This document shows, in pieces, positions 2,998 through 18,170 of a stretch of 39,799 nucleotides of DNA. The position numbers were made by a program, and so were the translations under genes. Where the stretch lies: IMG/VR virus record IMGVR_UViG_3300042691_019595, positions 1 to 39,799 of that record; one strand, given 5' to 3'. Source of the stretch: a virus. The notes beneath the pieces were generated by a model that searched no databases, was not told the DNA's origin, and saw only the letters and a list, made by a program, of their open reading frames with translations. The stretch's first letter is position 1. Every line of letters starts with the position of its first letter.

Positions 2998-3012
2998 GTT
3001 TCTGTCCCTCCG

Positions 3013-3981
3013 TTACTTCTTCAGCACGCCCTGAAGCGCGCAGTTGGAGGCGGTCATGTTGCCCGCCCAACCGATCAGCTTCACGATGGCGTCCTGATTG
3101 GTGTTCATGCGCTCCCCGCCGAGGACAACCATGTTGCGCTCGCTGTGCGGGCGGTAATGGATGTAGTCGGAGTTCAGGAAGTACATGTGATCAGCCGGGC
3201 AGTTGCCGCCCTGACCACCGTCAAGCACCACGTCCGCCGACATGAACTTGAGGTTCTCGAAGCCCGCCTGAGCCATCTTGTCATTGGTGATGCGCTGGAT
3301 GGTCTGGAGGGAGGCGAGATACATCAGCCACAGATTGTTGTCCGTGATGATGAGGTCGGGGCGATCCGTACCGCGCACGAGGCGCGAGTACATGATGTTC
3401 ATCTCCGACTGGATGGTGGTCGAGGACAGGGTGACCGAGTTGTCCGAGCTGTCCCGGTATTGGTTCTGCCAGAACGACCACGTGGCGCGGTTGATGCCGC
3501 CCACGGTGCCGCTCGTGGGCAGGTCAGCCACGAGATGCTGGAGACCACCGATCTCCTTGCCACCGTTGCCGGTGCCGTCTGCATAGCAGCCGAGCGCCAG
3601 CTTGTTCATCATGGTCTTTTCCGCGATGTCGATGCGGTTTTCCATGAGGTCAAGGATTTTCTCCTTGCCCGAGTTCTGGAGCTGCTCCAGACCGCTGATG
3701 GTGACAGCGACTGCAGCCTGCTTCCAATCGAACTCCGCAGCAGACATGACATCCGTCGCGCTCACGTCGAGCGGGTCATATCCACTGTACCACGTGAAGG
3801 TCGAGTTCTCCTGATAGGAGAGTTCCTGCACGAGGGTACGTCCGCCGGAGGCGGGCTTGGTCCGACCGCGCTGCTTCAAGCGATACAGGATCGCGTTGTT
3901 GTCAGTCACGTTGTCGGCAAGCTTGCCGGTGCGGTTGCGGAGGGTGGTCGTGATGATTTCGCTGAGATTGGGCGAGGTCAT
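3013..3981 (-). CDS. Major capsid (coat) protein
   Basis: The protein has 322 residues. The ATG at 3981 is preceded by AGGAG, formed over the stop of the scaffold gene. It begins MTSPNLSEIITTTLRNRTGK, with SFWQNQYRD around residue 170 and a long central region. It includes DLIITDNNLWLMYLASLQTI and ends in hydrophobic strands (AIVKLIGWAGNMTASN). Length, the absence of membrane segments and the position after the scaffold fit an HK97-fold podovirus coat protein. It would form the icosahedral shell around the scaffold. I see no protease gene, so scaffold removal is probably by release rather than cleavage; that is inference. Confidence 0.88.
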   Translation of the reverse strand: MTSPNLSEIITTTLRNRTGKLADNVTDNNAILYRLKQRGRTKPASGGRTLVQELSYQENSTFTWYSGYDPLDVSATDVMSAAEFDWKQAAVAVTISGLEQLQNSGKEKILDLMENRIDIAEKTMMNKLALGCYADGTGNGGKEIGGLQHLVADLPTSGTVGGINRATWSFWQNQYRDSSDNSVTLSSTTIQSEMNIMYSRLVRGTDRPDLIITDNNLWLMYLASLQTIQRITNDKMAQAGFENLKFMSADVVLDGGQGGNCPADHMYFLNSDYIHYRPHSERNMVVLGGERMNTNQDAIVKLIGWAGNMTASNCALQGVLKK

Positions 3982-17388: not shown

Positions 17389-17417
17389 TTAACTTCGCTC
17401 TATGGAGCGGGCATATT
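17389..17417 (+). promoter_or_regulatory. Candidate sigma70-type promoter
   Basis: TTAACT (17389-17394) and CATATT (17412-17417) are separated by 17 bases, each matching 4 of 6 consensus positions. Transcription would start near 17424, about 40 bases before the first hammerhead. A TTGACA at 17448-17453 is a stronger -35 but has no matching -10. Confidence 0.35.
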
Positions 17418-17463
17418 TGGGTCTCGTTAGTGCATTGCTTCTGCTGATTGACATCGTGAGACA

Positions 17464-17531
17464 GATCGAAACCCCGCCGGGCGGCAACGCCCGTGCGCGG
17501 GTCCAGCCGTGAAGCGGCTGCTGATGAGATC
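17464..17531 (+). ncRNA. Type II hammerhead ribozyme, copy 1
   Basis: The order is stem II half GATC (17464-17467), GAAA (17468-17471), stem III 17472-17501, the GUC cleavage triplet (17501-17503), stem I CAGCCG/CGGCTG (17504-17509, 17515-17520) with loop TGAAG, CUGAUGA (17521-17527), and stem II half GATC (17528-17531). Stem III has 3, 3 and 6 bp separated by single-base bulges (17498, 17494) and a GCAA tetraloop (17484-17487). All core residues are present, including the A-U pair closing stem III. Predicted cleavage is after C17503. The element ends 6 bases before the AAGGAG ribosome site of the gene at 17548. Confidence 0.93.
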
Positions 17532-17547
17532 AACCAAGGAGACCACC

Positions 17548-17811
17548 ATGATAAAGCGCAGCAACAACTATCTCGCCACCTTCAAGTCCGTCAGTGATGA
17601 CGGCCACGGCATGGTCTGGCACGGCAAGGTCATAGAGGCCTTCAACTACGACGAGGCGCGCGACAAGGCGCTCGACGTAGCCAACGCGGAGCGCAAGCTC
17701 ATGTACTGCACGGTGCAGCGACTGCTGCGCCCTGAAGCGAACAAGTACCTCATCAAGAGCGGGCGCGACTTGTTCTTGCTGGACAGGCCGGGTGTCATGC
17801 CCGTCGCCTAA
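17548..17811 (+). CDS. Early protein of unknown function, bracketed by hammerhead ribozymes (87 residues)
   Basis: I start at 17548 because AAGGAGACCACC directly precedes the ATG; an in-frame ATG at 17509 would lie inside the ribozyme. The protein begins MIKRSNNYLATFKSVSDDGH, continues with the segment AFNYDEARDKALDVANAERK and ends LFLLDRPGVMPVA. Its alpha/beta pattern resembles small phage proteins that tag or bind other proteins, but no family is recognised. The second hammerhead begins 2 bases after its stop, so both ends of its RNA can be defined by self-cleavage. Expression would follow the early + promoter. Confidence 0.72.
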   Translation: MIKRSNNYLATFKSVSDDGHGMVWHGKVIEAFNYDEARDKALDVANAERKLMYCTVQRLLRPEANKYLIKSGRDLFLLDRPGVMPVA

Positions 17812-17813
17812 CA

Positions 17814-17865
17814 GATCGAAACCGGCGCGAGCCGGTCGCAGCGTGAGGCGCTGCCTGATGAGATC
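17814..17865 (+). ncRNA. Type II hammerhead ribozyme, copy 2
   Basis: The order is stem II half GATC (17814-17817), GAAA (17818-17821), stem III CCGGC/GCCGG with GCGA tetraloop (17822-17835), GUC (17835-17837), stem I GCAGCG/CGCTGC (17838-17843, 17849-17854) with loop TGAGG, CUGAUGA (17855-17861), and GATC (17862-17865). Stem I and stem III sequences differ from copy 1 yet pair perfectly, while core, GNRA loop, TGARG loop and GATC are kept. Predicted cleavage is after C17837. It lies between two early genes, 9 bases before the next Shine-Dalgarno core. Confidence 0.95.
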
Positions 17866-17885
17866 AGCAACCAAAGGAGACCACC

Positions 17886-18170
17886 ATGAACAAGCCCGTC
17901 CGCAACCCCGCCTACATGATCCCGGTTCAGTCCCACGCCTTCGGTCTTGCCGTGGCCTATGACGCCTATCAGGACGCCCTGAAGGTGCCATCCACCCAGC
18001 GTGGCTTCCTCGATTGGAACGGCATCGTGGTCTGGGGCTCTGCCTTGATGCAGCACCAAGAGTTCTTCGGCATCGAGATACTGCCCAAGGTGTCCGTCGA
18101 GCGCAGCGTGATCGAGGCGCGCGAGGTGCGCGACAAGCTGAACCCGCCCGTCATCGAGGCATCGTTCTGA
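17886..18170 (+). CDS. Early protein of unknown function downstream of hammerhead copy 2 (94 residues)
   Basis: The ATG at 17886 follows AAAGGAGACCACC. The protein begins MNKPVRNPAYMIPVQSHAFG, with DAYQDALKVPSTQRGFLDWN and IVVWGSALMQHQEFFGIEIL. It appears to be a small alpha/beta protein without membrane helices. Its mRNA 5' end is predicted to be created by ribozyme cleavage at 17837, leaving a stem I hairpin as the 5' cap-like structure. Its stop forms TGATG with the next gene. No family is recognised. Confidence 0.72.
   Translation: MNKPVRNPAYMIPVQSHAFGLAVAYDAYQDALKVPSTQRGFLDWNGIVVWGSALMQHQEFFGIEILPKVSVERSVIEAREVRDKLNPPVIEASF

Follow-up and report, generated by a model that had tools for sequence, protein, structure and literature searches.

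Two hammerhead-like elements lie directly upstream of two small adjacent genes in the genome of an uncultured phage. This raises the question of whether they are genuine ribozymes and what they would do at such positions. The window analyzed here is the whole of IMG/VR virus record IMGVR_UViG_3300042691_019595 (positions 1-39,799; 39,799 nucleotides). Taken together, our results indicate that the two elements, HH1 and HH2, both on the coding strand, are very probably type II hammerhead ribozymes that serve as punctuation within an early transcript of the phage.

Core, fold and covariation of the two elements

HH1 (17464-17531, + strand) and HH2 (17814-17865, + strand) were each recognized as a complete type II hammerhead by sequence reading, the Rfam family RF02276 and a covariance model, R1, and HH1 by its fold as well. 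Both follow the order GATC-GAA-A(stem III)U-C-(stem I)-CUGAUGA-GATC. In HH1, GATC occupies 17464-17467, GAA 17468-17470, stem III 17471-17502, C17 position 17503, the stem I hairpin 17504-17520, CTGATGA (CUGAUGA) 17521-17527 and the second GATC 17528-17531. The corresponding parts of HH2 lie at 17814-17817, 17818-17820, 17821-17836, 17837, 17838-17854, 17855-17861 and 17862-17865. Both copies carry the full hammerhead core (C3 U4 G5 A6 N7 G8 A9 / G12 A13 A14 / A15.1-U16.1 / H17), and in sequence and folds stems I and III are loop-closed while stem II is open, which is the type II topology. The initial annotation had described two complete elements with all core bases, and this was borne out base by base, as were the loops and the change of stem I from CAGCCG/CGGCTG to GCAGCG/CGCTGC. 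Its account of stem III requires correction: the stem of HH1 is bulged, but in its minimum-energy fold it comprises 13 pairs, interrupted by two bulges, rather than 12 bp, and that of HH2 has 6 bp rather than 5 when A15.1-U16.1 is counted. In RNAfold, the minimum-energy fold of HH1 is exactly the hammerhead fold (z -4.0). That of HH2 contains stems I and III, with stem II displaced by a CUGAU-GAG-AUCAG triloop hairpin favored by merely 0.3 kcal/mol.

When a 501-nt segment was scanned, RF02276 (Hammerhead_II) was the top match among 4,227 Rfam families for both elements, with 28.3 bits (E 0.001) for HH2 and 22.8 bits (E 0.029) for HH1. Both scores fall below the gathering score of 37, which is the curators' threshold and not a structural criterion. 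Neither element was listed in a whole-window Rfam scan at E<=1, and a search of the phage's own genome with RF02276 returned nothing passing E 0.001. A plain Rfam run would therefore class the finding as background. Alignment A1 was assembled from 26 rows of relatives, including HH2 and excluding HH1, and R1 was built from it. Searched against the window, R1 gave exactly two matches up to E 10: HH2, a training row, at 75.5 bits, and HH1, which is independent of the training set, at 54.9 bits (E 2.4e-13). In A1, 99.8% of the cells in stems I-III are paired and both sides have changed in 13 of 16 pairs. The covariation score is 0.814, compared with 0.159 for shuffled and at most 0.113 for slid alignments. 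The alignment and the model thus describe three helices around the core that are supported by covariation. Compensatory differences between the two copies had been taken as a sign of selection on the fold. This argument carries little force with two copies alone, whose stems could be independent of each other, but it becomes strong with the alignment of relatives. By sequence and covariation, the assignment of HH1 and HH2 to the type II hammerheads is supported.

Placement of the ribozymes between phage genes

Each element is followed directly by the same arrangement, as the initial annotation had noted: an AAGGAG Shine-Dalgarno (SD) sequence, an ACCACC spacer and an ATG, at 17536-17550 for gene 1 and 17874-17888 for gene 2 (both + strand). 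Gene 1 (17548-17811, + strand; 87 aa) and gene 2 (17886-18170, + strand; 94 aa) are co-directional, and family and relative searches found no family or relative for either, including among the viral contigs and phages searched. The TAA stop codon of gene 1 (17809-17811, + strand) precedes stem II of HH2 by 2 nt. No gene lies between HH1 and the divergent genes of the - strand. A 36-codon open reading frame with a hydrophobic stretch (MERAYLGLVSALLLLIDIV...) at 17402-17510 crosses HH1 and ends in its stem I; it has no clear SD sequence and may be due to chance. The designation of the two genes as early is a fair inference, because the + strand arm carries the recombination genes Erf (22411) and Gp157/Gam-like (23211) together with a DUF932 gene (18694), and the portal, terminase and virion protein genes occupy the - strand. 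No sigma-70 promoter was recognized upstream of HH1, so its transcription is deduced from gene order. Blastn of the region against phages returned nothing, and a search for orthologous loci through the DUF932 neighbor gave relatives of only about 30%. By portal protein, the five nearest relatives among those searched all lack the element, which is consequently not essential to this type of phage.

Relatives of the elements are nevertheless numerous. When IMG/VR was scanned for the pattern of the GATC form, at least 120 stretches matched, and scans without the stem II constraint, one for each base at core position 7, returned at least 120, at least 120, at least 120 and 70; these sets are samples, and the abundances are lower bounds. 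After structural filtering, at least 614 elements were kept, at least 551 of them non-redundant, in at least 410 loci. Among the matches listed, the stem I hairpin is exactly 17 nt long in 525 of 551 relatives. This length was imposed in four of the five scans; in the GATC scan, where it was not imposed, 111 of the 117 elements listed have it. The five-nucleotide loop I of the listed GATC-scan elements begins with U in all 111 cases and has A at the third position in 89. Stem II is exactly 4 bp in 511 of the 551 listed relatives and is preceded by A in 507 of these 511. Its sequence varies (GACC, GTCC, GGCC, GCCT, GGTC and others), each version with the matching 5' strand. The loop I U together with the A flanks suggests a non-Watson-Crick contact between the stem I loop and the end of stem II. 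A pseudoknot between loop I and the tail was considered and rejected for these elements, as 37 of 235 relatives have helices of at least 4 bp, compared with 39.2 +- 4.9 after shuffling, which is not above chance. The relatives form one subclass, with an A-flanked 4-bp stem II, a 17-nt stem I, a U-first 5-nt loop and no pseudoknot. Across the 26 loci scanned with RF02276, the gathering score was reached by only three elements of a single record (none in the first 14 loci, three in the next 12), and the curated threshold mostly misses this subclass. With A flanks required, a scan of 257 Gb of genome sequence from bacteria and archaea gave the GATC form in only 2 contigs. It therefore looks rare in sequenced bacterial genomes, although prophages may be included in the IMG/VR set as well. 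Set against the at least 120 IMG/VR stretches, this scarcity suggests mainly non-integrating phages.

Among the matches listed, 524 had enough flanking sequence for a placement test. An SD sequence and start codon follow within 60 nt in 417 of them (80%), and the stop codon of an upstream reading frame of at least 40 codons falls between -4 and +25 in 459 (88%). Both features occur together in 368 of 524, against 11 on the antisense control, and in 150 relatives the stop codon is a TAG incorporating the conserved A-G at the margin of the ribozyme. In each of the 83 loci with several copies, all copies lie on the same strand. Single IMG/VR records hold 11, 9, 8 and 7 ribozymes, and at least 45 of 68 consecutive ribozyme pairs from the first two scans enclose a single open reading frame. 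One-stranded clusters of 7 to 11 copies were seen in L140 (G001:2568-7562), L129 (G002), L211 (G003) and L005 (G004), where many ribozymes come one per small gene. The relatives thus occupy the gap from a stop codon to the next ribosome-binding site, most likely as a uniform gene-separating device. The proteins encoded downstream are short, with a median length of 99 aa, and varied: 103 of them fall into 60 PHROG families, including DUF932 proteins, AAA ATPases, a helicase, a clamp loader and ArdC-like antirestriction proteins. No dominant family emerged from this survey, which is what a general processing device would lead one to expect. The tandem, SD-adjacent arrangement in the window had been regarded as unusual; with 80% of relatives followed by an SD sequence and start codon, up to 11 copies per record and prophage arrays published in 2011 (PMC3088659), it is instead typical.

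Hammerhead-like elements were also found in cultured phages, with two in Streptomyces phage Quantum (L124:2690-2750 and 2999-3056) and one in Burkholderia phage BcepF1 (L230:1461-1535). These have the core CUGACGA, an extra U ahead of a stem II of sequence GGCC and, further downstream, a GUCA(G) complement; they possibly represent a variant core in which a base is inserted after A9.

Proposed processing of the transcript and alternative explanations

The best reading of the two elements, drawn from their sequence, is that the 5' ends of early mRNAs are formed by predicted self-cleavage, as the initial annotation had suggested. By hammerhead numbering, cleavage would occur between C17 and stem I, at 17503/17504 in HH1 and 17837/17838 in HH2 (both + strand). 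A + strand transcript starting upstream and cut after 17503 and 17837 would yield a leader, a gene 1 mRNA and a gene 2 mRNA. The predicted excised gene 1 mRNA (17504-17837, + strand; 334 nt), encoding the 87-aa protein, would begin with the stem I hairpin of HH1 and end with the stem III hairpin of HH2, and the third product would be an mRNA starting at 17838 with gene 2 first. The downstream mRNAs would thereby carry a 5'-OH, a stem I hairpin and an SD sequence within about 40 nt, and the upstream pieces a stem III hairpin with a 2',3'-cyclic phosphate at the 3' end. Given what is established about RNA decay, ends of this kind should be protected from 3' exonucleases and from entry that depends on a 5'-monophosphate. 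The likely effect would be to unlink neighboring early cistrons and fix hairpin-protected mRNA ends without host RNases, and gene expression could change in turn. Since no gene separates HH1 from the divergent genes, its cut would trim the leader of gene 1 rather than separate cistrons. Points against this explanation include the scores of the window copies below the Rfam cut-off, the weak stem II of HH2 with its nearly isoenergetic competitor hairpin, the lack of a recognized promoter upstream of HH1 and the absence of the element from the five relatives searched.

In relatives, RUCAG, which complements the first five core bases (C3-N7), is over-represented in the tail immediately 3' of stem II. 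This was counted in elements not selected by stem II sequence and for complements lying wholly outside stem II. Among the matches listed, the 137 elements with U7 have AUCAG in 18 cases, GUCAG in 3, CUCAG in 0 and UUCAG in 1, whereas the 143 with C7 have GUCAG in 31, AUCAG in 2 and CUCAG in 2; with a purine at position 7, the complement occurs in 1 of 82 (A7) and 0 of 55 (G7). With related flanks collapsed into clusters, the ratios are 11:1 against 1:15 (Fisher p 6e-6), and 50 matched cases were observed against at most 32 in 10,000 permutations. About a fifth of the relatives with a pyrimidine at position 7 carry the complement. Its distance varies, with a loop of 6 in most and of 7-10 and more in others, as expected of a selected pairing rather than one inherited string. 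In RNAfold, with tertiary energy excluded, only 2% of the anti-core elements keep stem II, and another fold is preferred by a median of 2.8 kcal/mol. Carriers include L245, L248, L251, L266, L269, L208 and L162; the sequence of L251 reads CTGACGAGGCCGTCAG. The covarying segment is absent from HH1 and HH2. The CUGAU-GAG-AUCAG triloop of HH2 was rejected as a selected feature, as the triloop version (offset 8) draws on bases of stem II and shows no covariation with N7 (G:A counts of 24:5 with C7 and 7:2 with U7). Judged by its sequence pattern, RUCAG is a candidate natural off-switch, or a post-cleavage trap, for hammerheads: it might keep the ribozyme inactive pending the action of ribosomes or other factors, or it might act once cleavage has occurred, by refolding the product.

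These observations bear on whether the elements are constitutive scissors or regulated switches in which core-tail pairing, set by ribosomes at the stop codon or SD sequence, decides cleavage. The covariation of RUCAG with N7, the overlap of the upstream stop codon with the ribozyme edge in many relatives and the pairing of the core with AUCAG in the HH2 fold are in line with regulation. However, the window pair has the triloop version only, RUCAG occurs in only about a fifth of the relatives with a pyrimidine at position 7, and it may equally act after cleavage; we consider regulated switching unlikely here. Decayed ribozymes or structural leader hairpins that do not cleave in vivo appear less probable still. 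Such elements could account for the sub-threshold Rfam scores, and Perreault et al. found 4 inactive ones among the 18 consensus-like hammerheads that they tested (PMC3088659), but decay would strike the core too, and the core is intact in both copies and in hundreds of relatives while the stems vary. Short motifs also arise by chance in large collections, and low-information repeats might resemble hammerheads. Yet six scrambled cores under the identical structural rule gave 0 matches in 4.86 Mb against 614 for the true core, HH1 is recognized by a model independent of it, and the two copies, about 350 nt apart on one strand, have the same place relative to the SD sequence. Chance resemblance is refuted at the sequence level by the scrambled-core, R1 and placement evidence, and we give it almost no weight.

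Processing by self-cleavage is accordingly preferred for the window. As a tentative extension, whose chances we place somewhat below even, the subclass may be an intercistronic device of the stop-to-SD gap that in a sizeable fraction of members is combined with an anti-core switch or trap, the window pair being the simpler form. The anti-core segment would then act as a translation-linked off-switch or as a trap that renders cleavage irreversible.

Relation to known hammerheads and RNA processing systems

Early mRNAs of phage T7 are cut between cistrons by RNase III, resulting in hairpin-bearing mRNAs. That system relies on a host protein enzyme rather than RNA catalysis and leaves 5'-phosphate and 3'-OH ends. 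What hammerheads do in phages has been in question since 2011. Hundreds of copies of one uniform subclass, fixed between stop codons and SD sequences, lead to a concrete hypothesis, RNA-catalyzed separation of early cistrons, which can be tested in cultured phages with related elements, such as Quantum and BcepF1. The anti-core covariation in relatives suggests that a hammerhead may be naturally controlled.

Type II hammerheads as a kind and tandem prophage arrays are already known. Perreault et al. showed in 2011 that such arrays undergo cleavage both in vitro and in E. coli, and proposed processing into single-gene mRNAs (PMC3088659), an idea that the window pair fits. The RF02276 hammerheads of bacteria, prophages and metagenomes share the core, the permutation with an open stem II and the clustering of copies around single phage genes (PMC3088659). 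The present subclass differs in its 4-bp stem II flanked by A on both sides and its U-first 5-nt loop I. The loop I-tail pseudoknot is present in the majority of RF02276 members, common rather than universal or defining, whereas in the subclass it does not exceed chance. In the parts of the literature searched, we found no description of a pseudoknot-free, sub-cut-off subclass packed between stop codon and SD sequence, some members of which may be in the 2011 supplementary alignments, or of a covarying anti-core segment in bacterial hammerheads. A parallel in placement is HHphage of haloviruses HF1 and HF2, a hammerhead 13 nt before the start codon of an early helicase gene (PMC3088659). HHphage has core insertions near C3, whereas the window copies have the canonical core, and the 5' end of the helicase mRNA was mapped to within 3 nt of the cleavage site (PMC3088659).
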